A stretch of DNA of 64,000 nucleotides from an uncultured Paracoccaceae bacterium (GTDB lineage Bacteria; Pseudomonadota; Alphaproteobacteria; Rhodobacterales; Rhodobacteraceae), in assembly GCA_947492825.1 (NCBI GenBank), contig CANLNT010000001.1, positions 2,666,001-2,730,000 on the forward strand. The letters run 5' to 3'. The notes under the pieces were generated by a model. It ran no database searches. It saw only the letters and a list, made by a program, of their open reading frames with translations, and was not told the DNA's origin. Both the position numbers and the translations under genes were made by a program. This document shows positions 10,316-63,269 of the stretch, piece after piece. Numbering within the stretch: position 1 is the first letter of the stretch; each line of letters opens with the position of its first letter.

Positions 10316-10348
10316 CTTCTTCTGGCCAAAATAATCCCCGCCGGAGGC
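10316..10348 (-). repeat. Dispersed 33-nt core element, copy A
   Basis: This copy is identical over all 33 nt to the copy at 50138-50170 and differs at two positions from the copy at 56679-56711. On the minus strand it reads GCCTCCGGCGGGGATTATTT followed by TGGCCAGAAGAAG, just after the msrC stop. A short GC-rich stem followed by a U-rich run would resemble an intrinsic terminator in this direction. Confidence 0.7.
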
Positions 10349-10354
10349 AAGAAT

Positions 10355-10807
10355 CTATGTCGCAAAGACCTCTGTCAGCACGCGGCTCAGGCCATCCGCG
10401 TCGGACGTGTCAAACGCACCCGGCTGATCACTGTCGATGTCAAACACACCCAGCAGCGCGCCATCCCGATCCCAGACGGGCAAGACAATCTCGGACCGCG
10501 TGGAACTGGCGCAGGCGATATGGCCGGGGAAGGCATCCACATCGTCAACCAATTGCACCTCACCGGTGCGGGCGGCTGCCCCGCACACCCCGCGCGCAAA
10601 GGGGATCACAAGGCACCCATGCCCACCCTGATAGGGGCCGATCTTCAACAGCTCCGGGGCCACAACCCGGTAAAACCCGGTCCAGTCAAACCGGTCATCG
10701 CGCTGATGCACCTCGCAGGCCACCGTGGCCATCAGCGCCACCACATCATCCTCGCCCGCCGTCAGTGCCGCCAGCACCTTGCTCAGGTCGTCGTAATCTA
10801 TCCGCAT
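10355..10807 (-). CDS. msrC: Free methionine-(R)-sulfoxide reductase (GAF domain)
   Basis: A 150-residue single GAF domain. It reduces free L-methionine-R-sulfoxide with thioredoxin-type donors. Three cysteines at 65, 75 and 99 have exactly the spacing (10 and 24) of the three redox cysteines of the E. coli enzyme (84, 94, 118), and DWTGFYR and GGHGCLVIPFARGVCG are family motifs. The start is the ATG at 10807 behind GAGGATAGG. The longer frame from 10861 would translate two perfect palindromes and has no ribosome site. It follows the thiolase gene, with palindromes between them. Confidence 0.92.
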   Translation of the reverse strand: MRIDYDDLSKVLAALTAGEDDVVALMATVACEVHQRDDRFDWTGFYRVVAPELLKIGPYQGGHGCLVIPFARGVCGAAARTGEVQLVDDVDAFPGHIACASSTRSEIVLPVWDRDGALLGVFDIDSDQPGAFDTSDADGLSRVLTEVFAT

Positions 10808-10824: not shown

Positions 10825-10869
10825 CAGACTTTTGCAAAAGTCTGTCGCCAAATTCTGTCACAGAATTTG
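10825..10869 (-). repeat. Paired palindromes between thiolase gene and msrC
   Basis: Two perfect palindromes lie side by side: 10825-10844 (CAGACTTTT-GC-AAAAGTCTG) and 10849-10869 (CAAATTCTGT-C-ACAGAATTTG). The layout matches the palindrome pair at 50173-50217 although the bases differ. The 33-nt core found next to the other copies is absent here. Confidence 0.7.
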
Positions 10870-10876
10870 CCCCGCT

Positions 10877-12025
10877 CTACATCACCTCGATCGCGATGGC
10901 CGTTCCCTCACCGCCACCAATACAAATCGCGGCCACCCCGCGTTTCAGCCCGCGTGCTTCCAGCGCATGCAGCAGCGTGACGATAATCCGCGCGCCCGAC
11001 GCGCCAATCGGATGGCCCAGCGCACAAGCCCCGCCGTTGACGTTGATCTTGTCGCGCGGCACGCCCATCTCGGCCATAAAGGCCATCGGCACCACGGCAA
11101 AGGCTTCGTTCACCTCCCACAGGTCCACATCCGCAACCTGCCAGCCGATCCGCGCCAAAAGCTTCTGCGCCGCAGGCACCGGTGCTGTGGTAAACCACCC
11201 CGGCGCTTGCGCGTGACTGGCATGGCCCAGAATCCGCGCGCGGCCCGCACCAGTGCCCAACACCAACGCCGCCGCCCCGTCAGAGATGCTTGATGCATTG
11301 GCCGCCGTCACTGTGCCCTCCTTGCGGAACGCCGGTTTCAGCGTCGGGATCTTCTCGGGCCGCGCCTTGGCAGGTTGCTCATCGCGGGCAATCACCTCTT
11401 CACCGTGGCGGGCATGGACCGTCACCGGGGTGATTTCAGCCTCAAACGCCCCCGACCGTTCGGCGGCCAGCGCATTGTCGAGCGAGCCAATCGCATATTG
11501 GTCCTGATCTGCCCGGGTGAACTGAAACTTCTCGGCGCAATCCTCGGCAAAGGTGCCCATCAGGCGACCTTTGTCATAGGCGTCTTCCAGGCCATCCAGA
11601 AACATCGAATCCACCACCTGCTGATGCCCGATCCGCGCACCACCGCGCATCTTTGGCATCAGGTAAGGGGCCTCTGTCATGCTCTCCATGCCGCCGCAGA
11701 CCATTACCTCAGCCCCGCCCAATGCGATCTGGTCAAACCCCATCATCGCGGCCTTCATCCCCGAACCGCACATCTTGTTCAGCGTGGTCGCAGGCACATC
11801 CTCGCCCAACCCGGCGGCAAAGCTGGCCTGCCGCGCCGGTGCCTGCCCCTGCCCGGCAGGCAAGACGCACCCCATCAAGACCTCATCCACCCGGTCCACG
11901 TCCGTTTGCGCCAAAGCCGCCTTAATCGCGGCCCCACCCAGCACCGGTGCCGCCACCCCGGCAAACACCCCCTGAAAGCCGCCCATCGGCGTGCGCGCGG
12001 CCCCTTTGATCACGACGTCCCGCAT
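10877..12025 (-). CDS. Acetyl-CoA acetyltransferase (thiolase II family)
   Basis: A 382-residue thiolase. The nucleophilic Cys is in NKMCGSGMKA (about residue 86). The other catalytic motifs are VNEAFAV, GGACALGHPIGASGARI and CIGGGEGTA, with the second catalytic Cys near the C-terminus. It condenses or cleaves acetoacetyl-CoA or a related 3-ketoacyl-CoA in the cytoplasm. It stands apart from fatty-acid oxidation partners such as a hydratase or dehydrogenase, so its pathway is not fixed by context. GAGGTGACCG precedes the ATG. Confidence 0.93.
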   Translation of the reverse strand: MRDVVIKGAARTPMGGFQGVFAGVAAPVLGGAAIKAALAQTDVDRVDEVLMGCVLPAGQGQAPARQASFAAGLGEDVPATTLNKMCGSGMKAAMMGFDQIALGGAEVMVCGGMESMTEAPYLMPKMRGGARIGHQQVVDSMFLDGLEDAYDKGRLMGTFAEDCAEKFQFTRADQDQYAIGSLDNALAAERSGAFEAEITPVTVHARHGEEVIARDEQPAKARPEKIPTLKPAFRKEGTVTAANASSISDGAAALVLGTGAGRARILGHASHAQAPGWFTTAPVPAAQKLLARIGWQVADVDLWEVNEAFAVVPMAFMAEMGVPRDKINVNGGACALGHPIGASGARIIVTLLHALEARGLKRGVAAICIGGGEGTAIAIEVM

Positions 12026-16381: not shown

Positions 16382-17158
16382 TCAGGTCCCTCCGGTGGCT
16401 GTGGCTAGGGCATGCAAGGCGCGGGTTACCGCATCCGCATGTGTCATCGGCATCATATGTGCGGCCCCCTGCACGACCACCGCGCGGCCTTTGGGGGCCA
16501 GACCCGCCATTGCCCGTGACATGGCAGGTGTTGAATTGGGTTCTTCCGCCCCGGTCATGAACAGCGCGGGGCAATCCAACCCCTGCAAAGCCGCACGCGC
16601 TGGCCCGTCGCCTTGTGCAAAGGCGGAATAGGCCGCGCGATAGGCCGCCGGGTCCATCCCGCGCAACCAACTCTTGCAAGCACGCCGCTCCGCGCTGTCG
16701 GCCTCGCCGAACCACCGTTGCAAAGTCAGTACCGGGTCCACAGCACTGACCCCATCCAATGCCGCCGCCCGCGCCTGCACCGCCGCTGACGCCGCCGGGT
16801 CACGCTCAAAGATCGCATTCAGCGCCGCAACACCGCACAGCTTGCCGGGGTGCCTTGCCGCAATCTCCAGCGCGATCATCGCGCCCATCGAATGCCCCGC
16901 CACCAGTGCTGGTGCGTCCAATGATGCGGCCAGTTCCCCCGCCACGCGCGCCAGATCATCCACCACGCCGCCGCTTTCGCCATGCCCAGGCAGGTCCACC
17001 GCGATCACCCGGAATGCCCCCGCCAGCGCATCAATCTGCGCCCCCCAGGCCTCTGCCCGCAGACCGACGCCGTGCAGCAACAGAAGCACCGGCCCATCGC
17101 CCGCCACAACGGCGCGCAGGCCTGCAAAGTCAGACCGCTGCCGGGTTGTCCACGTCAT
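16382..17158 (-). CDS. Alpha/beta hydrolase
   Basis: 258 residues. LLLLHGVGLRAEAW gives the oxyanion strand, GHSMGAMIA the nucleophile elbow with Ser, and GAAHMMP the C-terminal catalytic His. Likely an esterase, lactonase or C-C hydrolase. In this operon it could open a lactone or ester made by the LLM oxygenase. AAGGATC stands before the ATG, and the start overlaps the upstream gene by 29 nt. Confidence 0.88.
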   Translation of the reverse strand: MTWTTRQRSDFAGLRAVVAGDGPVLLLLHGVGLRAEAWGAQIDALAGAFRVIAVDLPGHGESGGVVDDLARVAGELAASLDAPALVAGHSMGAMIALEIAARHPGKLCGVAALNAIFERDPAASAAVQARAAALDGVSAVDPVLTLQRWFGEADSAERRACKSWLRGMDPAAYRAAYSAFAQGDGPARAALQGLDCPALFMTGAEEPNSTPAMSRAMAGLAPKGRAVVVQGAAHMMPMTHADAVTRALHALATATGGT

Positions 17159-45640: not shown

Positions 45641-45682
45641 TCACGGTGCCTTAACCCCCGGCTGCGCGCCCACTGTGCAGCC

Positions 45683-45715
45683 GGGATGTGTATGGGATGT
45701 GCATGCAATGTGCAT
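45683..45715 (+). repeat. Triple 11-nt repeat, intergenic copy
   Basis: Three exact-length units, GGGATGTGTAT, GGGATGTGCAT and GCAATGTGCAT, in tandem with an 11-nt period. The same three-unit design occurs at 62691-62723 inside the CbiG-CobJ gene. It lies between the lipoprotein stop and the phosphatase stop, two convergent genes. Confidence 0.65.
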
Positions 45716-45740
45716 CGGTTAACGCACCGCCTGACGCACC

Positions 45741-47985: not shown

Positions 47986-49734
47986 ATGTCAGACCAACCC
48001 GCTTATCAGGTCCTCGCCCGCAAATACCGGCCCGAAACCTTTGCCGATCTGGTGGGACAGGATGCAATGGTCCGCACGCTGCGCAATGCCTTTGCCGCAG
48101 ACCGGATTGCACAAGCCTTCATCATGACCGGCATCCGCGGCACCGGCAAAACCACGACCGCGCGGATCATCGCCAAAGGCATGAACTGCATCGGCCCTGA
48201 TGGCACCGGTGGCCCTACGACCGATCCGTGTGGCCAGTGCGAACATTGCACCGCGATTATGGAAGGCCGCCATGTGGACGTCATGGAAATGGACGCGGCA
48301 TCCAACACCGGTGTGCAGAATATCCGCGACGCGATCATTGAAACCGTCAGTTATCGCGCCGCCTCAGCCCGGTTCAAGATCTTCATCATTGATGAGGTGC
48401 ACATGCTCTCGACCAGCGCCTTCAACGCGCTCTTGAAGACGCTGGAAGAACCCCCCGCCCACGTCAAATTCATCTTTGCCACGACCGAAATACGCAAGGT
48501 GCCGGTCACCGTCCTGTCGCGTTGCCAACGGTTTGACCTGCGCCGCATCGAACCCGAAGTGATGATCGCAATGCTGCGCCGGATCGCCACCGCCGAAGGC
48601 GCTGAAATATCCGATGACGCGCTGGCGCTGATCACCCGCGCCGCCGAAGGCTCTGCCCGTGACGCGCAATCGCTTCTGGATCAGGCGATCAGCCACGGCG
48701 CAGGCGAAACCACCGCTGATCAGGTCCGCGCCATGCTGGGTCTGGCCGACCGGGGCCGGGTGCTGGACCTCTTTGACATGATCCTGCGGGGCGAGGCTGC
48801 AGCGGCCCTGAATGAGTTGTCGTCGCAATATTCCGACGGCGCCGACCCGATGGCCGTGCTGCGCGATCTGGCAGAGGTCTGCCACTGGGTCAGCGTCATC
48901 AAGATCACGCCCGAAGCGGCAGAAGATCCCACCATCAGCCCCGATGAACGCACCCGCGGGCAGGCGATGGCCGCCGGTTTGCCGATGCGTGTGCTGTCGC
49001 GGATGTGGCAGATGCTGTTGAAATCGCTGGAAGAAGTCAGCGTCGCGCCCAACGCCATGATGGCCGCAGAAATGGCAGTGATCCGCCTGACCCACGTGGC
49101 CGACATGCCGACGCCCGACGAGCTGGTCAAGAAATTGCAAGACGCCACGCCGCCGCCCTCCGGCGGTCCAACGGGCGGCAGACCAGCACCCACCGGCGGC
49201 ACCACGACCACCGCCATATCGGCGTCTCCGGCCCCGACCCACAGCGGCCCATCTGGCCCCTCTGCGGCACTGGCCGTGGCGGCGGACACCGCAGCGCTGG
49301 CGCATTACGCCCGGTTCGAAGACGTGGTCGACCTGATCCGCACGCACCGCGATGTGAAACTGCTGGTGGACGTTGAAACTTCGCTCCGGCTGGTGGCCTA
49401 TCAACCGGGCCGGATCACGGTGAACCCCACAGATAAAGCACCGCGCGATCTGGTGCAGAAACTGGGCAGCCGCCTGCAATCCTGGACCGGCAACCGCTGG
49501 GCGATCACTGTGGTCAGCGAAGGTGGCGCGCCAACAATTGCAGAAGTCCGGGATGCCGCCGAAAACGCCCTGAAGGAAGAAGTGCAGAACCACCCGCTGA
49601 TGCAGGCGGTGCTGGCCACGTTTCCGAAGGCCCGGATCACCCGGATCGAAACCCAACAGGACAAGGCCCAAGAGGCGCTGGAAGACGCGCTGCCAGAGGT
49701 GGACGACGAATGGGACCCCTTTGACGAGGACTGA
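47986..49734 (+). CDS. dnaX: DNA polymerase III subunit gamma/tau
   Basis: 582 residues. ARKYRPETFADLVGQ, Walker A GIRGTGKTTTA, zinc cysteines CGQCEHC, Walker B IFIIDEVHML and the SRC finger in VLSRCQRF mark the clamp-loader ATPase. A Pro/Gly/Thr linker (about 385-430) leads to the tau C-terminus that binds the polymerase. No frameshift site for a short gamma form is obvious to me. ATG 47986 is preferred over GTG 47980. It heads dnaX-ybaB-recR. Confidence 0.95.
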   Translation: MSDQPAYQVLARKYRPETFADLVGQDAMVRTLRNAFAADRIAQAFIMTGIRGTGKTTTARIIAKGMNCIGPDGTGGPTTDPCGQCEHCTAIMEGRHVDVMEMDAASNTGVQNIRDAIIETVSYRAASARFKIFIIDEVHMLSTSAFNALLKTLEEPPAHVKFIFATTEIRKVPVTVLSRCQRFDLRRIEPEVMIAMLRRIATAEGAEISDDALALITRAAEGSARDAQSLLDQAISHGAGETTADQVRAMLGLADRGRVLDLFDMILRGEAAAALNELSSQYSDGADPMAVLRDLAEVCHWVSVIKITPEAAEDPTISPDERTRGQAMAAGLPMRVLSRMWQMLLKSLEEVSVAPNAMMAAEMAVIRLTHVADMPTPDELVKKLQDATPPPSGGPTGGRPAPTGGTTTTAISASPAPTHSGPSGPSAALAVAADTAALAHYARFEDVVDLIRTHRDVKLLVDVETSLRLVAYQPGRITVNPTDKAPRDLVQKLGSRLQSWTGNRWAITVVSEGGAPTIAEVRDAAENALKEEVQNHPLMQAVLATFPKARITRIETQQDKAQEALEDALPEVDDEWDPFDED

Positions 49735-49779
49735 CCAAACACCTATCTGGAACCAGAACAAAGATAGCGGAGAAATGTG

Positions 49780-50124
49780 ATGCTCAAAGGATTAGGCGGC
49801 CTTGGCGACATGGCCAAGATGATGAAACAAGCCCAGGAAATGCAGGGCAAAATGGCCGAGATGCAAAACGACCTCGACAACATCATGGTCGTGGGCGAAA
49901 GCGGCGCAGGTCTGGTCAAGGCAACCGCGACCGCCAAGGGCGAACTCAAGGGTCTCGACATCGACCCCAGCATCTTCAACGGCGATGACAAGGAAGTGGT
50001 CGAAGACCTGATCCTTGCCGCCATCAAGGACGCACAATCGCGCGCCTCCGAACGCAGCCAGCAGGAAATGTCAAAAATGGCAGAGGCCATGGGCCTGCCA
50101 CCCGGCATGAACCTGCCGTTCTAA
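49780..50124 (+). CDS. ybaB: YbaB/EbfC nucleoid-associated protein
   Basis: 114 residues. A Met/Gln/Lys-rich helix (MAKMMKQAQEMQGKMAEMQ) precedes the conserved VKATATAKGELKGLDIDPS. It forms dimers that bind DNA. GGAG lies 7 nt before the ATG at 49780. Between dnaX and recR, as in most bacteria. Confidence 0.95.
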   Translation: MLKGLGGLGDMAKMMKQAQEMQGKMAEMQNDLDNIMVVGESGAGLVKATATAKGELKGLDIDPSIFNGDDKEVVEDLILAAIKDAQSRASERSQQEMSKMAEAMGLPPGMNLPF

Positions 50125-50137
50125 GGACGGTCCCCTG

Positions 50138-50217
50138 CTTCTTCTGGCCAAAATAATCCCCGCCGGAGGCATCAAATCCTTCCAAGGATTTGAACAAAAT
50201 CCTGTGTCAGGATTTTG
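50138..50217 (+). repeat. Dispersed element copy B: core plus two palindromes
   Basis: The 33-nt core (50138-50170, identical to copy A) is followed by palindrome CAAATCCTT-CC-AAGGATTTG (50173-50192) and palindrome CAAAATCCTG-TGT-CAGGATTTTG (50195-50217). CCCCCG then leads into the recR ATG at 50224. Relative to its operon this copy is inverted compared with copies A and C. Confidence 0.75.
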
Positions 50218-50223
50218 CCCCCG

Positions 50224-50817
50224 ATGACGCAGGGCACCGAAGATCTCGACGACCTGATCGCACTTCTGGCCAAGCTCCCTGGGCTTGGCCCCCGCTCTGC
50301 CCGGCGGGCAGTCCTGCATCTGATCAAGAAGCGTGGGCAAGTCCTGCTGCCCTTGGCCGAAGCCATGCAGCGGGTCGGCACCACGGCGCGCGAATGCCTG
50401 AACTGCGGTAATATCGGCACCACGGACATCTGCGACATCTGCGCCTCTGAAAAGCGCGCCACGGGCGAGATTTGCGTGGTCGAAGACGTGGCCGATCTTT
50501 GGGCGATGGAACGCGCCGCGGTGTTCAAGGGCCGCTACCATGTGCTGGGCGGTACCCTTTCGGCGCTGGATGCTGTGGGCCCCGAAGAATTGCGCATCCC
50601 CAAGCTGATCGACCGTGTCAAAACCGAAGAGGTGACAGAGGTGATCCTCGCCCTCTCCGCCACCATCGACGGCCAAACCACGGCGCACTACATCGCCGAT
50701 CAATTGCCGGGCATCTCTGTCACTTCACTGGCGCAAGGCGTGCCGGTAGGCGGTGAGCTTGACTACCTTGACGATGGCACCATCACCGCAGCCCTGAACG
50801 CGCGACGCAGGCTCTAG
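50224..50817 (+). CDS. recR: Recombination mediator RecR
   Basis: 197 residues. A helix-hairpin-helix start ([20 protein letters not shown]), a C4 zinc site ([16 protein letters not shown]) and a Toprim domain ([32 protein letters not shown]). It works with RecO to load RecA on single-stranded DNA. No ribosome site is visible before the ATG; the palindrome of the dispersed element ends 6 nt upstream. Confidence 0.95.
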
Positions 50818-51530
50818 ACAACGGCAGGCCGCGTGATTTCTGCCAAGATGGGCAAGTGGTCAGAGGCATGCGCCCCTTTGGGCAACGGCGGCAGTGGTAG
50901 CGTGGACAGGTTCAACTCCGGGCTATGTGCGATCCGGTCCAGCGCCAAGAGCGGTAGACGCGAAGGAAAGCTGCGCCCCGGCGTCTTTATGACAAATCCC
51001 CTCGCGATCCGCCCTAAACCGCGCCGCAAACTCCACTCATTGAAGTCCCCGATGATGACTGTCGGACGCTGATGCATGTCGCCCAAAGTTTGACGCAGAT
51101 GATCCAACTGGCGGCGGCGGGCAGATCGGAGCAACCCCAAATGCACCCCAACGATCCGCAATGGTCCGATTGGGGTCTCGGCATCGGCAATGATCGCCCC
51201 GCGCGGCTCCAGCCCCGGCAGATCGATACAGACCCGGTCATTTACCGTGATCTCCGGGGCCACCAGCAGCGCGATCCCGTGCCAACCCAGGCTGTCGGGA
51301 TGCCCGCCAAAATCGACAGCGCAAAGACCCGTGTCAGCGATCAGGCGGCGTGGCAGGGCGCTGGGTCGATGACCCATGCGAAAATCAGCCTCCTGCAACA
51401 CCATCATCTGCGTCTTGAGCCCGATGATCGTCGCCAAGGTTCGCGCCGGGTTGCGGCGCAGGTCTGTCCCCAGTCCGGCACGGATGTTGTAGCTGCCGAT
51501 GCGCAGGCTTATGTCAGGTACATCACACAT
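50814..51530 (-). CDS. Endonuclease/exonuclease/phosphatase family protein
   Basis: 238 residues from the ATG at 51530 (CGGAGTG just before). EEP motifs in order: [35 protein letters not shown] and [11 protein letters not shown]. The substrate may be DNA, RNA or a phospholipid. A much longer in-frame frame upstream covers the divergent gene and is rejected. The 3' end overlaps recR by 4 nt, convergent. Confidence 0.88.
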
Positions 51531-51564
51531 CACTCCGATATAGAAACAACGACAAGGCGTTGCG

Positions 51565-52230
51565 ATGGTGAAGTCAGAGACATTCGTGCGGATCATGCAA
51601 GCCATCCTGCTGATCTCAGCTGGCTTTGCGCTTTTTGATGGAAAATGGTCGGTGGTCTTTGTGGCTCTTGCCACATGGGTCCTGACACTCTCACCGCGTC
51701 GCTTTGCCCGCTGGTTGGGGATTGATCTGCCACCCAGCTTCCTGCTGGCGATTGTGGTCTTTACTTTTGGCACCTTGTTTCTGGGCGAAGTCTTTGACTT
51801 CTACGAACGCTACTGGTGGTGGGACATCGCCCTGCATTTCGGCTCTGCCATGGGGTTCGGGCTGATCGGTTTTCTGTTTATTTTCATGCTGTTCGAGGGG
51901 GACCGTCTTGCCGCACCACCGCTTGCAATTGCGGTGCTTTCCTTTGCAACCGCTGTCGCCATCGGCGCGCTTTGGGAGGTGTTCGAATTTGCGATGGATC
52001 AGCTGTTCGGGCTGAACATGCAAAAGTCCGGGCTGGTCGATACCATGGCCGATCTTATCGTGGACATTTTGGGCGCATTCCTTGGGGCGACGGCAGGCTA
52101 TTTCTACCTGAAGGGGCGGCAGCTTGGCGGATTGGGGGCGGCGATTGATGCCTTCGTGCAGCGCAATAAATCACTTTATCGGAAAATCAGACCGGGGCAG
52201 AAGTCGCCCAAACGCAAAAAGCCCCGCTAA
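51565..52230 (+). CDS. YjdF/DUF2238-like membrane protein
   Basis: 221 residues with about six membrane segments. The conserved part is WWWDIALHFGSAMGFGLIGFL, then GALWEVFEFAMDQLFGLNMQKSGLVDTMADLIVDILGA, with His, Glu and Asp inside membrane segments. The C-terminus is basic and cytoplasmic. The function is unknown. Divergent from the EEP gene. Confidence 0.7.
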   Translation: MVKSETFVRIMQAILLISAGFALFDGKWSVVFVALATWVLTLSPRRFARWLGIDLPPSFLLAIVVFTFGTLFLGEVFDFYERYWWWDIALHFGSAMGFGLIGFLFIFMLFEGDRLAAPPLAIAVLSFATAVAIGALWEVFEFAMDQLFGLNMQKSGLVDTMADLIVDILGAFLGATAGYFYLKGRQLGGLGAAIDAFVQRNKSLYRKIRPGQKSPKRKKPR

Positions 52231-52245
52231 GGTGGCGGGGCTTTT
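52217..52245. terminator. Bidirectional terminator
   Basis: AAAAGCCCCGC and GCGGGGCTTTT form an 11-bp perfect stem. The TAA of the upstream gene lies in the 7-nt loop. T-runs occur in both directions, so it serves both the membrane protein gene and trcR, which converge. Confidence 0.85.
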
Positions 52246-52263
52246 CGCATCGTACGGTCGGGA

Positions 52264-53022
52264 TTAATCCTCGTCTGTGTCGCCGCCCTCTGGCAGGTTA
52301 AAGAAGCTGTCGGCATCCGCCACGTCGCGGGTATCCTCTTCTTCTTCGCCCTCTTCATCGCGTGGGTCGGACAGGCTGAACGTCTCAAGGCCAGCAATCG
52401 CACTTGGCATCTTGGGTTCTGGTTCCATGCCCAGCGACTGTTCGGTGCTGACCAGCTTGCGCCGCTCATCATCGGACATCACGCCGCCCTCTTTCGCCTT
52501 CTTGGCATTGGCCTTTTGCACAGCGGCATCCAGTTCGGATTGCTTGCACAGGCCCAGCGCCACGGGGTCAATCGGCTCAAGATTGTTGATGTTCCAATGG
52601 GTCCGTTCGCGGATTGCCTGAATGGTCGGCTTGGTCGTGCCCACCAGTTTAGAGATCTGGCCATCGGACAATTCGGGGTGGAACTTCACCAGCCAATAGA
52701 TTGACGCAGGGCGATCCTGACGCTTAGACAGCGGCGTGTAGCGCGGACCACGGCGCTTTTCCTCACCGGCAGAGGCGGGGTTATAAAGCAACTTCAGCTT
52801 GTGCATCGGATCAGCCTCGGCCTTGTCGATCTCGGCCTGGGTCAGCTGTTTGTTGGCGATGGGGTCAAAGCCCTTCACACCGGTGGCCACATCACCATCG
52901 GCAATGCCCTGCACTTCCAGCTCGTGCAGGCCGCAGAAATCCGCGATCTGCTTGAAAGTGATTGTCGTGTTATCGCAGAGCCAGACCGCCGTGGCCTTTG
53001 CCATAATCGGTAGATTTGCCAT
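52264..53022 (-). CDS. trcR: Cell-cycle transcriptional regulator TrcR (DUF1013)
   Basis: 252 residues. PIMAKATAVWLCDNTTITFKQIADFCGLHELEVQGIADGD is the family start, and IYWLVKFHPELSDGQISKLVGTTKPTIQAIRERTHWN a second HTH-like part. The C-terminus is strongly acidic. TrcR is an essential-type, alphaproteobacterial DNA-binding protein. ATG 53022 starts the conserved part; ATG 53046 is a possible longer start. Confidence 0.92.
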   Translation of the reverse strand: MANLPIMAKATAVWLCDNTTITFKQIADFCGLHELEVQGIADGDVATGVKGFDPIANKQLTQAEIDKAEADPMHKLKLLYNPASAGEEKRRGPRYTPLSKRQDRPASIYWLVKFHPELSDGQISKLVGTTKPTIQAIRERTHWNINNLEPIDPVALGLCKQSELDAAVQKANAKKAKEGGVMSDDERRKLVSTEQSLGMEPEPKMPSAIAGLETFSLSDPRDEEGEEEEDTRDVADADSFFNLPEGGDTDED

Positions 53023-53152
53023 TCTCATCTCCATCTCATCAGACATGCCTCTCCCGCGCCCTTGAAGGGGCAGACCGCTATGGGCCGGGTTCGCATTGTC
53101 GGGGAACTTGAGCCGTATATAGTGCGGGCATTCCCGGTTGGAAAGACCCCAA

Positions 53153-53782
53153 ATGCGCCGCCTGTTCGCCCTTTTGCTTTGCCTTGCCTCGCCCGCTGCC
53201 GCACAAGATGTGGCCGGAGAGTTCGACTACTACGTGCTGTCACTGTCATGGTCGCCCAATTGGTGTGATCTGGAAGGGCGCGCCAAGGGATCTACCCAAT
53301 GTGACGAAGGCGCAGGGTTCGGCTGGATCATGCACGGGCTTTGGCCGCAATACGAACGCGGCTGGCCTGCCAATTGCCCGACGAGCCAGCGCAACCCTTC
53401 GCGGGCCATGACTGCCGAGATGGCTGATATCATGGGGACCTCAGGCCTCGCTTGGTATCAATGGAACAAACATGGCGTCTGCGCGGGGCTTGCGGCAGAT
53501 GACTATTACGCGCTGGCGCGGCTGGCCTATGAAAAGGTCACGCGCCCGGCGGTTCTGCGCGAACTGACCCGCGACGTGACCCTGCCCGCGACGCTGATTG
53601 AAGAGGCTTTTCTGCGCGACAATCCTGACCTTGAGCCTGATCAGATCACCATCACCTGCAAGGCCGGTGCCATTCAGGAGGCGCGGATCTGTCTGACCCG
53701 TGATCTGGAATATCGCACTTGCGGCGCGGATGTGATCCGCGATTGCAGTCTGGACAGTGCCGCCTTCTCGGCGATTGATTAG
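53153..53782 (+). CDS. Secreted RNase T2-family protein
   Basis: 209 residues. A signal peptide MRRLFALLLCLASPAAA is followed by DYYVLSLSWSPNWC. First active-site segment: IMHGLWPQY (His61). Second: WYQWNKHGVC (His107). Where many T2 enzymes have HEW in the second segment, this has YQW, so the acidic residue is Gln. Probably a periplasmic RNA scavenger, with possible altered activity. GGAAAG precedes the ATG. Confidence 0.88.
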   Translation: MRRLFALLLCLASPAAAQDVAGEFDYYVLSLSWSPNWCDLEGRAKGSTQCDEGAGFGWIMHGLWPQYERGWPANCPTSQRNPSRAMTAEMADIMGTSGLAWYQWNKHGVCAGLAADDYYALARLAYEKVTRPAVLRELTRDVTLPATLIEEAFLRDNPDLEPDQITITCKAGAIQEARICLTRDLEYRTCGADVIRDCSLDSAAFSAID

Positions 53783-54411
53783 CGTTCCTGCGCCCCTTTG
53801 CCCGCGATGATTTTGTCGCGAAACTTGGCGATCCGCGCGATGCGTGTCGGCGATTGTTTTGCCTGGTTCAGGTTGAACGCATAGCTTTTCTGCCGTCCCG
53901 GTGTCAGCGCGGCAAAGGCCTCTGCCAGTTCCGGGTCAGCATCCAGCGCTTCGATCAGCTCATCAGGGATCGGCACCTCTCGCACGACCTTGGGCGGCAG
54001 AATACCTGCGGCGGCATAGCCCATTGCCTCTTTCAAATAGGCGATGATGACCGGGGCCATTGCGGCCGGTCCCGCGTTGTCTTCAAAGCGGATCATATCG
54101 GGGTTTTGCGTATTTGGGCCTTGCCTTTGCAGAACCCCCTCGGGGTCTTTCATCAGGGCGGCATTGAAGAAACTCAGGCGGAAATTGCTTTGAAACGCGC
54201 CGATAATCGCAATGTTGCGCCCAGCAAACATGTAACACGGATGCCCCCATTTCGCGGTCTCTTCCAGCCCCGCGTCGCGGCAAAGCTGCCTCAGTGTCAG
54301 CAGCCCCTCTTGCCAGATCAAGCTTGAACAACTTGGGCTATCGAACCTGTCGCAACGGCCACACCCCTTGGCAAAGTAGTCATCCGGCTCTGTGATCATC
54401 GCGCGTGTCAT
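53779..54411 (-). CDS. YdeI/OmpD-associated, DUF1801-type protein
   Basis: 210 residues. An N-terminal DUF1801-like fold (LLTLRQLCRDAGLEETAKWGHPCYMF, NIAIIGAF) joins a C-terminal YdeI motif (PIPDELIEALDADPELAEAFAALTPGRQKSYAFNLNQAKQSPTRIARI). YdeI-family proteins are linked to stress and antimicrobial peptide resistance in some species, with no known chemistry. It converges with the RNase gene (4-nt overlap). Confidence 0.8.
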   Translation of the reverse strand: MTRAMITEPDDYFAKGCGRCDRFDSPSCSSLIWQEGLLTLRQLCRDAGLEETAKWGHPCYMFAGRNIAIIGAFQSNFRLSFFNAALMKDPEGVLQRQGPNTQNPDMIRFEDNAGPAAMAPVIIAYLKEAMGYAAAGILPPKVVREVPIPDELIEALDADPELAEAFAALTPGRQKSYAFNLNQAKQSPTRIARIAKFRDKIIAGKGAQER

Positions 54412-54457
54412 GCCCGGACCCTAACGCAACTGCGGCACTGTCATCAAACCCGCGGCC

Positions 54458-54892
54458 TTAGCGTCCGTCGGGATATTCCGCCGGGCCCTTGATCTCCAGC
54501 TTGTTGCCAAACGGATCACGCACATAGAACGAATGGCCCATGCCGCGCGCACCGCCGTGCATCGCCTCGCGTTCAATCGCGACACCGTGGGCGGCCAGAT
54601 GGGCGCGCAAGGCGTTGTGATCAAAGGGCGTGGTGGCGATGCACACGTGATCGACATTGCGACCACCCGGTACCGGTGGCACGGTAGAGGCGGCACCGGG
54701 GTGGGTTGTGTCCCACAGGACGATCAGCGCAGACCCGGCCCAGACCTGTTCCATCCCCAGATCGGGATAGGAATAGCCCGGCGGACAGCCCAGCACATCG
54801 CGATACCACGCAACCGCCCGGTCAAGGTCGTCGACCAGAAAGACAACATGGTCAATCCCGACCAAGGCAAAGGGCAACTTGCGATGAGGCAT
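54458..54892 (-). CDS. VOC-family (glyoxalase-like) protein
   Basis: 144 residues with two beta-alpha-beta-beta-beta units. GIDHVVFLVDDLDRAVAWYRDVLG starts the first, VDHVCIATTPFDHN the second; SFYVRDPFGNKLEIKGP holds the C-terminal metal Glu. Members are metal-dependent lyases, dioxygenases or resistance proteins. It starts 2 nt after the aldo/keto reductase gene. The substrate is unknown. Confidence 0.85.
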   Translation of the reverse strand: MPHRKLPFALVGIDHVVFLVDDLDRAVAWYRDVLGCPPGYSYPDLGMEQVWAGSALIVLWDTTHPGAASTVPPVPGGRNVDHVCIATTPFDHNALRAHLAAHGVAIEREAMHGGARGMGHSFYVRDPFGNKLEIKGPAEYPDGR

Positions 54893-54894
54893 GG

Positions 54895-55713
54895 TCAGAC
54901 GTCCCATTCCGGGCACCAGGGGCCGTTCACCAACCGCATGTTGCGATCCAGCGCGTCGATCCGCGCAATCTGATCAGGCGACAGGGTGATGTCCCCGGCG
55001 GCCAGGTTTTCAGCAATCCGTTCTGGGTTGCCAGAGGATGGGATCACCCAGTGCCCCTTCGCCAAAAGCCACGCCAGCGCCACCTGACCGATGGTGGCAC
55101 CCAACTCTGTCGCGACGGCCTGCAAGACTGGGTCATCCGCCACAGCACCGCGCGCAAGTGGCGAAAAGGCGGTCATCGCGATACCTTTTGTGCGGCAGTA
55201 ATCCACGATGGGGCTGTTGTGCAGGAACGGATGCAGTTCCACCTGATTGGTCAGGATTGGACGGTCACCCAAAAGCGCCAGCGCGCGGTCCATATAACGA
55301 ATTGTAAAGTTTGAGACGCCAATATGGCGCGTCAGCCCCGCGTCATAGACGTCGGCAAACTGCGCCATGTAATCCTCGATCTGATACTCGTCGTTGATCG
55401 ACGGATAATGCAGCAGCAACAGGTCGACAGGGCCGACACCCAGCTTGTCCAGCGAGGCCTCGACATGGCTCCGGATCTGGCCGGGGGCAAAGCTTTCGGG
55501 GGCGACCTTGGTGGTGACCCACAACTGGTCACGCGGAATGCCCGCGTCGGCAATGGCGCGGCCCACGTCCGCTTCATTGTCATAGCCTTCTGCCCCGTCG
55601 ATATGGCGATAGCCCACCTTTAGCGCCGTCAGGACCCCCTGATAGGCGGCATCGCCCGGGCGGTTCCATGTGCCGTAACCAATCGGTGGCGGGGTGGTCA
55701 TCATTGCTGACAT
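54895..55713 (-). CDS. Aldo/keto reductase
   Basis: 272 residues. Catalytic tetrad: Asp and Tyr in HIDGAEGYDNE, Lys in WVTTKVAP, His in LLLLHYPS. The NADPH site is near IPSSGNPERIAENL. It reduces aldehydes or ketones to alcohols (2,5-diketogluconate reductase-like group). ATG 55713 follows an AGGAT stretch. Cotranscribed with the VOC gene, which may handle a related reactive carbonyl. Confidence 0.9.
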   Translation of the reverse strand: MSAMMTTPPPIGYGTWNRPGDAAYQGVLTALKVGYRHIDGAEGYDNEADVGRAIADAGIPRDQLWVTTKVAPESFAPGQIRSHVEASLDKLGVGPVDLLLLHYPSINDEYQIEDYMAQFADVYDAGLTRHIGVSNFTIRYMDRALALLGDRPILTNQVELHPFLHNSPIVDYCRTKGIAMTAFSPLARGAVADDPVLQAVATELGATIGQVALAWLLAKGHWVIPSSGNPERIAENLAAGDITLSPDQIARIDALDRNMRLVNGPWCPEWDV

Positions 55714-55773
55714 GCGCTGCATCCTATCTATTGGAGGGCGCAGCCTATAACGATTTAGACGCCCTTGCCAATA

Positions 55774-56670
55774 TCAATCAAGACGGTCCGGCAACGACAA
55801 CCCCTTTAGAACGTCCCCCGCCGCCATTGCCGACTTTCCGGCACGCTGCGCGCGCGTGATTTCAACAGCACCGTCACCGCACGCCACTGTAAACCCGCTC
55901 AGAACCGCCCCCGGCGGGCCAGAGCCTTCGGCCAGTCGCGACGCCAGCAGCTTGACCCGCTCGCCCGCAACCTCGCACCATGCGCCCGGAAATGGCGACA
56001 GACCGCGGATCAGGCGGTCAACCTCTTGCGCGGGGCGCGTCCAATCCACCCGCGCCTCTGCCTTGTCGATCTTGGCTGCATAGGTCACGCCGTCCTCGGG
56101 CTGCGCCTCTGCGTCCATCGGCAACCCGTCCAGCGCCTGCACGATCAGCCGTGCACCAAGGACCGACAAGCGGTCATGCAAAGCACCGGTCGTTTCTTCG
56201 GTGCCGATTGCCACAGCCTCACGCAGCAACACAGGGCCGGTGTCCAACCCTGCCTCCATCTGCATGATGCAGACGCCCGTTTCGGCGTCCCCGGACATGA
56301 TCGCGCGATGGATCGGGGCCGCTCCCCGCCATCGCGGCAAAAGGCTTGCGTGGATATTAAGACAGCCAAGGCGTGGGGCGTCCAACACCGCTTGCGGCAG
56401 GATCAGCCCGTAAGCCACCACAACAGCCACGTCCGCCTCCAGCGCGGCAAACTCCGCCTGCGCAGCCGCATCTTTCAAAGACACCGGATGGCGCACGTCC
56501 AAACCCAAGGCTGCGGCCTTGGCCTGCACGGGACTGGGCCGATCTTTCTTGCCGCGCCCCGCCGGCCTCGGCGGCTGGCAGTAGACGCAGGCGATATCAT
56601 GGCCCGCATCGACCAGCGCCTGCAAAACCGGCACCGAAAAATCAGGCGTACCCATGAATATGACGCGCAT
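55774..56670 (-). CDS. fmt: Methionyl-tRNA formyltransferase
   Basis: 298 residues. [19 protein letters not shown], the catalytic Asn/His in [17 protein letters not shown] and [17 protein letters not shown] define Fmt, with a C-terminal OB-type tRNA-binding domain. It formylates Met-tRNAfMet; the deformylases upstream in the same operon remove the formyl group later. The ribosome site, AAGGGA, is partly supplied by the end of the dispersed element at 56679. Confidence 0.95.
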
Positions 56671-56678
56671 CGTGGTCC

Positions 56679-56734
56679 CTTCTTCTGGCCAAAAATATCC
56701 CCGCCGGAGGCACAGAATTTTCGACGAAAATTCT
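56679..56734 (-). repeat. Dispersed element copy C: core plus palindrome
   Basis: The 33-nt core (56679-56711) differs from copies A and B at two bases. Next to it is palindrome AGAATTTTCG-A-CGAAAATTCT (56714-56734), which runs into the stop codon of the deformylase-like gene. On the minus strand the order is palindrome, then core, then fmt. Confidence 0.75.
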
Positions 56735-57230
56735 ACCCCCGCGCTTTGCGGGCCTTTTTGAGTAACATATCCCGCTTCACCCGGCTGAGATGATCAAAAT
56801 ACATCTTGCCTGCCAGATGATCGATCTGGTGCTGCACGCTGGTCGCAGCAAGGCCCACAAATTCCTGCCGGTCCCAGATCCCCTGATCGTTCAGGAACCG
56901 CACGGTCACGGCCCGTGGGCGTTTGATCGTGGCGCGGACACCGGGCAAGTTGGGCGACCCTTCGGAATGTTCGCGCAGCTCAACACTCGCATGCAGCACT
57001 TGCGGGTTCGCCAACCGCACCGCTTTGCCTCGGCTGGTGCTGGCATCAACCACGGCCAGAGCCAGCGGGATGCCCAGTTGTACCGCTGCCAGCCCCACAC
57101 CGGGCATCGCATCCATCGCCACGATCATCTCGTCCCAGATCGCGTGGATTTCATCGGTGATCTTGTCCACTGGCTGGGCCGGGGTGCGCAGGGCCTTGTC
57201 AGGCCACATCACAAAGGGGCGGTGCATCAT
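56733..57230 (-). CDS. Peptide deformylase-like protein, active site altered
   Basis: 165 residues. The fold is clear ([10 protein letters not shown] matches motif 1), but motif 2 EGCLS reads EGSPNL, losing the metal-binding Cys, and motif 3 HExxH reads QHQIDH, losing the catalytic Glu. It is therefore probably not an active deformylase and may bind nascent chains, a ribosome or the true enzymes. The ATG at 57230 overlaps the upstream def stop as ATGA. The frame is intact, so it is not a decaying gene. Confidence 0.88.
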
Positions 57231-57679
57231 ATCGCGTAGTCCGTGCATAAAATCCCATCGAGGTGGTCACGCTCGTGCTGGATGCACCGCGCGGCGAATC
57301 CGTCAAATGCGGCTTCATGTGGCGCGCCTTCAAGGTCCTGCCACGTCAGCCTGATTGCCACGGGTCGGGTCACCATGCAGGGCGTATCCGGGATCGACAG
57401 GCATCCCTCTTCGCTCGCTTCGCAACGCTCATCGGCCCATGACACCACTGGGTTCACAAAAATCTGTGGGTCAGGCGCGCCGTCTTTCCACGTCGCATCC
57501 ATGACGAAGATGCGTTTCATCACCCCTACCTGTGGTGCCGCCAGCCCGCGTCCCTGTGCGCGATACATCACCTCAAGCATGCCCTTGGCGAGTGCTGCCA
57601 GCGCCGGGCCGAACGGGTCAACCGGCTTGCAAACAGCCCGTAACACCGGGTCCGGTGCAAGGCGTAACGTCAGGCTCAC
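57227..57679 (-). CDS. def: Peptide deformylase
   Basis: 150 residues. All three motifs are intact: GRGLAAPQVG, EEGCLSIP and IQHERDHLDG. The protein stops soon after motif 3, shorter than the copy at 57676, so it lacks the long C-terminal helix. It starts with a GTG that overlaps the previous stop (GTGA). A second active deformylase in the same operon. Confidence 0.92.
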   Translation of the reverse strand: MSLTLRLAPDPVLRAVCKPVDPFGPALAALAKGMLEVMYRAQGRGLAAPQVGVMKRIFVMDATWKDGAPDPQIFVNPVVSWADERCEASEEGCLSIPDTPCMVTRPVAIRLTWQDLEGAPHEAAFDGFAARCIQHERDHLDGILCTDYAI

Positions 57680-61461: not shown

Positions 61462-63269
61462 GCCAGATCACCGTCAATCTTGCGCGCGTAGCCACGCGGC
61501 GTGAACATGCGTGGCCCCTCGCCCAACTGCGCCAGCCGTGAATTGCTCGACCCAACCAGTACGACAGTCAGCATATCTACCTCGTCCACCTGCAATTCAT
61601 CCAGACGCCGATAGCGGATATGCTCCTCGGGCCGGCCCAGTGACGACGCCAACATCACCGGCGTGTCGGCGGGCCGGTGCTGCAACAGAATGTCCCGCCC
61701 TTCGGCCAGCAAGGTTCGCCGCGTCTTGGACACCGGATTGTAGAACGCGATCACGAAATCGCCCTCTGCTGCCGCCTTCAGACGTCGCAGGATATCCTCG
61801 CGCGGGGTCAGCAGGTCCGACAGGGAAATCGCACAGAAATCATGCCCCAGCGGTGCCCCCGCCCGTGCCGCCGCGCCTTGCAAAGCACTCACACCGGGCG
61901 AACATTGCACTTCGACCCGGCGCGCTGCGTCCGAGACACCCATCTGGTCCGGACCGCGATCCAGCAATTCAAAGACGAGCGCACCCATCGCATAGATGCC
62001 CGCATCGCCGGAACAGACAAGGGCCACGTTCTTGCCCTTGCCCGCCTGTTCAAGCGCATAGCGACAGCGATCCTCTTCCCCGCCCAAGGGGAAATCCGAC
62101 CGGTCCTTGCCAGCGGCCAATGGCCCAAGCAGATCGATATAAAGCCCGTAACCCACCAATTCCTCAGCGTCGGCCACCAGCCGTGACACCTCTGGTGTGC
62201 GCCACGTCGCCTGCCCCGGCCCGATGCCAACAACCGACAGCTTGCCGCGCGGCCGTCCGCGCATCTCAATCAGCGGTGCTGGCACTTGCACCAGCGCGCA
62301 GGTCGCATTGGCGGTCTTGCGCTTTGTCACGATCAGTTCTGCGTCAGCCCCGCCCTGCGCCAGGGCCGCCGCTTCGGCCACCCCATGCGTGCCGACCTCG
62401 GCAAAGACCACCTCGGATGGGGTCGCCAGGCGCGGCGTCTCGGCCTCAAGCTCTTGGGCTTCAAACAACCGCATCGGGACACCCAGATTACGGGCGAGGT
62501 TGATGATGGCCGGTTCATCGGCCTTGAGCGTCATCGTGTTGACGGAATGCACGGCTTGCGCGCAGATGTCCGCCTCGTCCAACACATCCTTGACCAGTGC
62601 CGACAGCTCCTCTGGCGGGCAGTTGCGGGCGCAGCCGACACCCAGCACCGTCCGCAAAGGCGTAAATTTCAGTAAGGTTTGCGTCGGTACGGGATGTGCA
62701 TGAGTTGTGCATGCAATGTGTATCCCGTCGCCGCGCGGCAATTCCTGCAACCAATCGGCGGGTTCATCCCCTGTTAACGTCGCACCCTGCCCGTCCAACA
62801 GGGCCGCCATCGCACCCTTGGCTGCGTCGGGATTAACAAGCCGCCATCCCGGTGGTGGCGCATCAAGGGCCACCCCCAGGGCAACATCCCCTGCGGTGGT
62901 AACAGCCGCAACCCCTTCCAAAACATCAGCGATTTCCTTGGCCAACCGGTTCGCCCCGCGATGCCCACCAAGCAGCGGCACGATCACAGCCCCATCATCA
63001 CTGACAGATATCACCGGCGGCTCTGTTGTCTTGTCCGCAAGTAGCGGCGCCACAGCCCGGATCAAAATTCCGCTCGCACAGACTCCAATCACCGGGTAAC
63101 CCGCCGCAAACAGATCACGCACATGATCCAGCGCGTTTGCAAAAAATGCATCGGCCTGTTCAACCCGATCCTGCCGTCCATGCAGCGAGGCATCCAACAA
63201 TTTGGCGATACGATGGGCTGTTGGTTCGCCGGATTTCGACAACGCCACAACAATGGGTTTCAAAGCCAC
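61458..63269 (-). CDS. cobJ: CbiG-CobJ fusion (precorrin-3B C17-methyltransferase)
   Basis: 603 residues. Residues 1 to about 335 are CbiG-like: N-terminal part (VVALSKSGEPTAHRIAKLL, LLGGHRGAN) and the CobE-like C-terminal part (VLGVGCARNCPPEELSALV, FAEVGTHGVAEAAAL). From about 343 it is CobJ: LSVVGIGPGQATWRTPE, VCSGDAGIYAMG, DFCAISLSDLLTP. It contracts the corrin ring. A triple 11-nt repeat (62691-62723) encodes residues about 183-193 in the linker between the CbiG parts. It overlaps cobI by 10 nt. Confidence 0.92.
   Translation of the reverse strand: MALKPIVVALSKSGEPTAHRIAKLLDASLHGRQDRVEQADAFFANALDHVRDLFAAGYPVIGVCASGILIRAVAPLLADKTTEPPVISVSDDGAVIVPLLGGHRGANRLAKEIADVLEGVAAVTTAGDVALGVALDAPPPGWRLVNPDAAKGAMAALLDGQGATLTGDEPADWLQELPRGDGIHIACTTHAHPVPTQTLLKFTPLRTVLGVGCARNCPPEELSALVKDVLDEADICAQAVHSVNTMTLKADEPAIINLARNLGVPMRLFEAQELEAETPRLATPSEVVFAEVGTHGVAEAAALAQGGADAELIVTKRKTANATCALVQVPAPLIEMRGRPRGKLSVVGIGPGQATWRTPEVSRLVADAEELVGYGLYIDLLGPLAAGKDRSDFPLGGEEDRCRYALEQAGKGKNVALVCSGDAGIYAMGALVFELLDRGPDQMGVSDAARRVEVQCSPGVSALQGAAARAGAPLGHDFCAISLSDLLTPREDILRRLKAAAEGDFVIAFYNPVSKTRRTLLAEGRDILLQHRPADTPVMLASSLGRPEEHIRYRRLDELQVDEVDMLTVVLVGSSNSRLAQLGEGPRMFTPRGYARKIDGDLA
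62691..62723 (+). repeat. Triple 11-nt repeat inside CbiG-CobJ
   Basis: Units GGGATGTGCAT, GAGTTGTGCAT and GCAATGTGTAT in tandem, same period and order of variation as at 45683-45715. Because 33 nt is a whole number of codons, the gene frame is kept; on the coding strand it yields IHIACTTHAHP. Confidence 0.65.

Follow-up and report, generated by a model that had tools for sequence, protein, structure and literature searches.

Do AT-rich hairpins whose arms differ in sequence and still pair mark an RNA under selection, a DNA repeat or a by-product of DNA copying? The question is raised by five perfect palindromes in the window, that is, the whole 64,000-nucleotide stretch analysed here, from an uncultured Paracoccaceae bacterium. 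All five lie where the original prediction had placed them, except that one spans 50172-50193 and is one pair longer than the 50173-50192 first read. Each has arms of 10 bp, with loops of 0 (10825-10844), 1 (10849-10869), 2 (50172-50193), 3 (50195-50217) and 1 nt (56714-56734), and a G+C content of 29-40%, against 62% for the whole window. When perfect palindromes of under 50% G+C are counted, with a minimum arm of 9 and a maximum loop of 3, the window holds five, against a mean of 0.35 and a maximum of 2 in 20 order-2 Markov simulations. The five occupy three short co-directional junctions (thiolase/GAF-domain gene, ybaB/recR and def/fmt), two of which also have a copy of a core repeat in the spacer:

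10877..12025, minus strand: thiolase gene (PF00108, PF02803), upstream of the hairpin doublet
10849..10869, minus strand: first hairpin of the thiolase-GAF doublet, in the sense direction CAAATTCTG-TGA-CAGAATTTG, 7 nt past the thiolase stop codon
10825..10844, minus strand: second hairpin of the doublet, CAGACTTT-TGCA-AAAGTCTG, upstream of the GAF-domain gene
10358..10807, minus strand: GAF-domain gene (PF13185), downstream of the doublet
10316..10349, plus strand: the window's third copy of the core, no AT hairpin adjoining it
49780..50124, plus strand: ybaB (PF02575)
50138..50171, plus strand: sense-oriented core copy, located after the ybaB stop and ahead of the hairpins
50172..50193, plus strand: first hairpin of the ybaB-recR spacer, TCAAATCCT-TCCA-AGGATTTGA
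50195..50217, plus strand: second hairpin of the ybaB-recR spacer, CAAAATCCTG-TGT-CAGGATTTTG, ending 6 nt ahead of the recR ATG
50224..50817, plus strand: recR (PF13662, PF21175)
56733..57248, minus strand: def, peptide deformylase (PF01327), upstream of the single hairpin
56714..56734, minus strand: single def-fmt hairpin, AGAATTTTC-GTC-GAAAATTCT, starting within the def stop codon
56679..56712, plus strand: core copy, antisense to def-fmt
55774..56670, minus strand: fmt, formyltransferase (PF00551), downstream of the single hairpin

The genome is of 4.0 Mb, and the relatives of its recR are those of Yoonia, Loktanella and other Rhodobacteraceae. The AGGA closest to the recR start codon lies inside the 3' arm of the second hairpin, here and likewise in L043 and L044, and recR translation may be coupled to that hairpin through it. 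Rfam 15 covariance models found the small SRP RNA alone in the whole window, with no match at the palindromes; on 50100-50260 they gave five matches, all far below the gathering score. No description of the palindromes or the core turned up in the literature searched (most subscription journals lie outside it), and a search with the core's CCGCCGGAGGC as text returned only papers on other subjects. Short tandem repeats of another kind, the GGGATGTGYATG type, lie at 45671-45716 and 62679-62724 of the window, and L047 has a stretch resembling them between 4598 and 4815.

The core has 30 copies in the window's own genome when up to three mismatches are allowed, and in the spelling used it occurs in 55 of the 198 family genomes sampled. 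An AT hairpin lies within 100 nt on the GGAGGC side of 8 of the 30 copies and on the opposite side of none; a ninth copy with a hairpin, in L026, was seen by eye, having been missed through the script's G+C limit. That core and hairpins can occur separately, as had been proposed from the window, is borne out: the spacer of the doublet at 10825-10869 is without the core, the core at 10316 is without a hairpin, as are most of the 30 copies, and at site s6 two relatives retain the core and lack the hairpin. They are separate elements, sometimes neighbours, and the hairpins look like a scattered family with gain and loss, not a fixed part of the core repeat. A core-plus-AT pattern matched 11 of 197 family genomes, its matches being a mix of some hairpins (e.g. 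the doublet in L236), inverted core pairs and plain AT stretches.

Three further observations concern the core: (i) In L229, L249 and L257 (genome G068) it stands as a head-to-head inverted pair round a short loop, which would form one long hairpin. (ii) A second repeat module consists of the left half of the core followed by a GC-rich hairpin of GGGGGCTGGCCCCC type; it was found in L018, in L130 at about 18960 and, in several genera, at the thiolase-GAF junction. (iii) The core at 56679-56712, read on the minus strand, ends in GGCCAGAAGAAGG immediately before the fmt start, and may be the source of the fmt ribosome binding site.

The palindromes are members of a dispersed AT-rich hairpin family of some Rhodobacteraceae, about 19-26 bp in length and occurring singly or in close pairs. 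Among 92 sequences from the window's own and related genomes, spacers hold 64 AT-rich palindromes, many of them orthologs of each other, against 1 to 5 in five shuffles. Of the AT palindromes with a score of at least 9, 4 of 31 and 10 of 86 in two samples were genic, the others lying between genes. The family is unevenly dense, since a second batch of 400 kb from the own genome yielded only two clear members by eye (L261 and L276).

Copies differ in arm sequence, and so do orthologs. A fixed-arm pattern had no match in the own genome, and a MAFFT alignment of doublet copies put the hairpin centres out of register. One subtype does have a fixed centre, TTCGWCGAA, and was matched at 90 sites; 23 of 197 family genomes carry it, the own genome with 20 of the sites, and identical 19-base copies occur in distant genera. 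The subtype pattern permitted mixed half-sites, and both free pairs are symmetric in 78 of 78 among the matches listed (90 counted). A search of the own genome with the centre as the only criterion returned 19 sites, 17 of them listed. Complementarity extends to all four flanking pairs at 13 of these 17, which have four different flank sequences between them, and to one pair at the other 4, with none in between. One pair type is excluded at the outermost position of this pattern, which leaves three of the four pairs fully free. In other genomes, the 59 centre sites listed have 0, 1, 2, 3 and 4 complementary pairs in 9, 26, 18, 4 and 2 cases, a mean of 1.4 that is slightly above the 1 expected for random bases.

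The family is gained and lost at gene junctions, often right past a stop codon, and where it adjoins the core it does so on the GGAGGC side. At the thiolase-GAF junction we surveyed 70 family genomes, one per genus, drawn from 146 with a GAF-protein match. By script, the thiolase end adjoins the GAF gene in 46 of the 70, a figure to be read with 5 spacers left without assignment, the junctions of L298, L305 and L311 missed and the own spacer mis-set. In 16 of the 46 the spacer is of at most 9 nt or the codons overlap, and several junctions carry a GC-rich repeat module sharing the core's left half. AT hairpins were found there in the own genome, in L299, with two hairpins of other arms plus a reversed core, and in L345, with one. 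Within the window's genus, G004 and G005 lack about 66 bp containing both hairpins, and their stop and start codons overlap; the doublet of this genus thus appears to be a gain between formerly abutting genes.

Orthologous sites were compared within the genus, starting from hairpins of the own genome (G000) and taking G002, G003, G004 and G005 as relatives. In 19 hairpin comparisons, transcribed from ortholog alignments with one register choice per pair, 145 stem pairs are unchanged and 21 are altered on both sides and still paired, 6 of these 21 coming from one comparison of uncertain register (the recR spacer of G004, which has one hairpin). One-sided changes number 6 (2 to G-U, 4 to a mismatch), and there is 1 both-sided mismatch. 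The both-sided changes are clustered, with 17 of the 21 within 5 of the 19 comparisons, and the loops are altered in 14 of the 19. At the thiolase-GAF junction, the doublet of G003 has identical stems and new loops, and that of G002 reads CAATTTTT-GGA-AAAAATTG and CGGATTTTT-TGAG-AAAAATCCG; the def-fmt hairpin of L048 has a both-sided change relative to the window copy. At eight further own-genome sites, the hairpin in G002, G003 and G004 is retained, retained with new arms, or missing, and for some junctions no alignment was obtained. The 19 comparisons thus exclude sites with a missing hairpin (s5 in G002 and G003; s6 in G002, G003 and G004; s7 in G004; thiolase-GAF in G004 and G005; recR in G005), s3 in G002, where two other hairpins stand, and sites for which no alignment spanned the junction (s1 in G003 and G004, s2 in G002 and G003, s3 in G003 and G004, and s8).

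The original prediction had read covariation from copies within the window; this example is not covariation in the strict sense, because the copies compared belong to different, non-homologous loci, but at orthologous sites the claim holds. AT palindromes are present in 19 of 71 orthologous ybaB-recR spacers. Species at this locus were picked for hairpin presence, with the window's own genus left out, so that they show paired change given a hairpin and not constant retention. Among second hairpins with loci of one length (11 of 14 hairpins, 9 distinct sequences), 96.3% of cells are paired and 8 of 9 pairs have a both-sided change; the corresponding first hairpins (9 of 16, 8 distinct) have 97.2% of cells paired and a both-sided change in 5 of 9 pairs. 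For both hairpins the paired cells, both-sided changes and covariation score lie above all 500 shuffles and all slid versions; the number of further pair types was reached by 6 of 500 shuffles for the second. The wider sets, whose letters were transcribed by eye from the spacers, have Watson-Crick pairs in 125 of 128 cells (16 first hairpins) and 110 of 112 (14 second hairpins); both-sided cells number 28 and 23, where shuffling gives means of 5.0 and 5.7. Placed on the recR tree, these same letters imply at least 23 paired-to-paired changes in the first hairpin and at least 17 in the second; non-Watson-Crick cells number 3 and 2. Change at orthologous sites thus preserves pairing.

A longer kind of palindrome was also seen, GTAAGGTGGATC.../...GATCCACCTTAC and GTAAGATGGGTTT/AAACCCATCTTAC, which are pair-preserving variants of one another and measure 26 bp (30 with flanks in L067). 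Sites of this type are at L050 16585, L057 18861, L059 6801, L062 6493, L063 3830, L067 5523, L071 16024, L076 2802 and L101 2363, about 5 to 64 nt past the nearest called gene end.

Position relative to genes was measured in 684 kb of the own genome (the window plus 31 stretches). There, AT palindromes with a score of at least 9 in assigned spacers are co-directional in 17 of 25 cases and divergent in 8. Of 14 co-directional spacers, 9 have their first AT hairpin starting no more than 12 nt past the stop codon, with 2.66 expected, a count equalled in 2 of 5000 random placements; for GC-rich hairpins the figure is 9 of 25, with 5.14 expected. Random stretches of G002-G004 showed no such excess, with an AT hairpin near the stop in 1 of 6 spacers and 1.12 expected. 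With 400 kb added to the own-genome sample, and hairpins outside the family included, co-directional spacers have 21 AT hairpins in 46.5 kb, divergent 9 in 21.3 kb and convergent 3 in 12.8 kb; per kb, the co-directional density does not exceed the divergent one. Gene calls came from a simple script and contain some errors (it lists the L138 doublet as divergent, though this was read as following a stop codon), and by these calls L144, L261 and L276 are clear family members in divergent or convergent spacers. L138 also has two identical TTTGCAACCGGTTGCAAA palindromes, at 11622-11639 and 16458-16475, which lie about 4.8 kb apart in divergent spacers and are operator-like.

What the hairpins are for can be read in several ways. 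The one we place first, tentatively and with less than even confidence, is that this family, with arms that change together, consists of intercistronic mRNA hairpins protecting the upstream cistron. The palindromes would be transcribed and fold between cistrons, protecting the 3' end of the upstream one once cleavage or Rho-type termination has exposed it to 3'-to-5' exonucleases; they would not themselves end transcription. In favour of an RNA are the place behind stop codons, loops that change oftener than stem pairs, and the window folds: predicted RNA folds of the three window sites contain the hairpins, at -25.8, -21.9 and -18.9 kcal/mol, with 1, 1 and 5 of 200 shuffles equally good. Of three relatives folded, L148 adopts the drawn fold without surpassing its shuffles (z -0.95), L057 forms the second hairpin only and L101 adopts another fold. 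In the related Rhodobacter, the puf operon has stabilising RNA structures (PMC6238624), and these would serve as a precedent.

It had also been proposed that covariation here is the mark of a selected RNA or DNA structure, and this step the data do not support, because there is no preference for G-U over A-C, the centres are palindromic unusually often, and DNA copying can produce paired changes with no selection on the product. Mismatches in AT hairpins, a set that holds some hairpins outside the family, are G-U and A-C in a ratio of 8:8, as against 77:20 in the GC-rich hairpins of the same pool (Fisher p 0.024), and in the genus comparison G-U makes up 2 of the 6 one-sided changes. The copying alternative is described in PMC8794818. 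Pairing is kept, and selection for an RNA may be what keeps it. We take an mRNA-hairpin function to be the most probable explanation for the elements' persistence at these places, and template switching to be a strong contender as the source of the paired changes, the two being compatible.

Template switching may also be the whole explanation, arm-to-arm copying during replication making and renewing perfect palindromes of a selfish or neutral repeat, with no RNA selection; we regard this as distinctly possible, if short of probable. Two-sided changes are clustered and one-sided intermediates rare, as is looked for in template switching: the genus comparison gave 6 one-sided against 21 both-sided changes, so bunched that 5 of 19 comparisons hold most of the latter, and on the recR tree at least 40 paired changes contrast with 5 non-Watson-Crick cells. 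Centres are palindromic beyond what an RNA loop would require: among four-base loops, complementarity at both inner pairs was found for 26 of 52 AT hairpins and 6 of 102 GC-rich ones. Neither the even mismatches nor the GAC and GTC centres (6 and 6 among those listed) show a strand preference. According to PMC8794818, the footprints of template switching include multi-base compensatory changes and four-base loops, most of them partly reverse-complementary. The absence of a co-directional excess per kb over divergent spacers likewise weighs the RNA-hairpin reading down and template switching up. Template switching alone does not account for why the hairpins follow stop codons, why they are AT-rich when the genome is rich in G+C, or why, judged by eye, ybaB-recR hairpins are either intact or missing and not decayed. 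Inverted loops, which PMC8794818 calls extremely rare, are 0 of the 14 changed loops in the genus comparison. A bolder combination is a repeat family inheriting only palindromy, in which arm-to-arm DNA copying rewrites the sequence within a genus, the hairpin and its stop-codon place persist, and structure, not sequence, is what spreads and is kept; we find it rather doubtful.

Less can be said for a mobile palindrome of REP type that serves no purpose for the host and is mobilised by a transposase working on hairpin DNA; this we consider unlikely. The family is dispersed and patchy, as seen in the subtype confined to 23 of 197 genomes and its identical copies in distant genera; presence and absence at orthologous junctions fit mobility; and a Y1 transposase was matched in 2 of 20 genomes (G104 and G131), both bearing copies. 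Yet in that search of 20 genomes for a mobilising enzyme, which covered the RAYT-type family (Y1, PF01797) alone, no match was obtained in G000, with its 20 subtype copies, nor in G002, G003 and G004, nor in G157, G066, G010, G025 and G011, with 4-9 copies each. The arms, moreover, are without sequence conservation among copies and orthologs, the TTCGWCGAA centre being fixed in one subtype. An identity as REP/RAYT elements was rejected on both grounds, the own genome lacking a PF01797 transposase and arm sequence not being conserved.

That the palindromes are operator sites of a dimeric DNA-binding protein with relaxed specificity is very improbable. Dyad symmetry through the centre, AT-rich half-sites and the fixed TTCGWCGAA centre of one subtype are operator-like, but a tolerant protein would be expected to accept mixed half-sites, and the symmetric free positions (all 78 matches listed, under a pattern that allowed mixing) therefore speak against it, as does the split of the listed own-genome centre sites into 13 fully paired and 4 with one pair. 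Half-sites do not vary independently at free positions, and the operator identity was rejected for this reason. Intrinsic transcription terminators, suggested by hairpins at gene ends, were rejected as scarcely credible, there being no U-tract, no G+C-rich stem (29-40% G+C in the window), a short distance to a co-directional next gene, and no call for any of the three hairpins within a terminator scan of 49000-57500.

Covariation commonly counts as the best sign of a functional RNA that sequence can give, and here it is strong in a simple 20-base hairpin and among close relatives; several signs fit DNA copying despite that strength, so the family makes a natural test of covariation arising from mutation alone. 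Being poor in conserved sequence, repeats of this kind are also missed by identity-based repeat finders, and some of their junctions are places where a hairpin pair appears to have arisen between genes that formerly abutted.

Several known systems invite comparison. The REP and BIME elements of enterobacteria and other gammaproteobacteria are likewise short intergenic palindromes, single or paired. REPs keep their sequence and accompany a RAYT transposase, whereas the arms here change, the stems are AT-rich, and G000 and G002-G004 gave no PF01797 protein. The Rhizobium intergenic mosaic elements and Rickettsia palindromic elements are, like these, dispersed palindromic repeats of alphaproteobacteria; they are larger and of conserved sequence. 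The double-hairpin elements of fungal mitochondrial DNA are also tandem hairpins scattered in spacers, but are mitochondrial. Closer in setting is the puf operon hairpin of Rhodobacter capsulatus, tied to segmental mRNA stability (PMC6238624, which cites Klug et al. 1987): it too stands between co-directional operon genes of a related bacterium, at a single locus, unlike the present dispersed family with its gain, loss and rewritten arms. The template-switch hairpins treated in PMC8794818 share multi-base paired changes, perfect stems and partly palindromic four-base loops; those are RNA genes, whereas here the palindromes are intergenic and no inverted loop was seen. Set beside all of these, the palindromes are a new variant among dispersed intergenic palindromic elements, one in which pair-preserving change is unusually clear.
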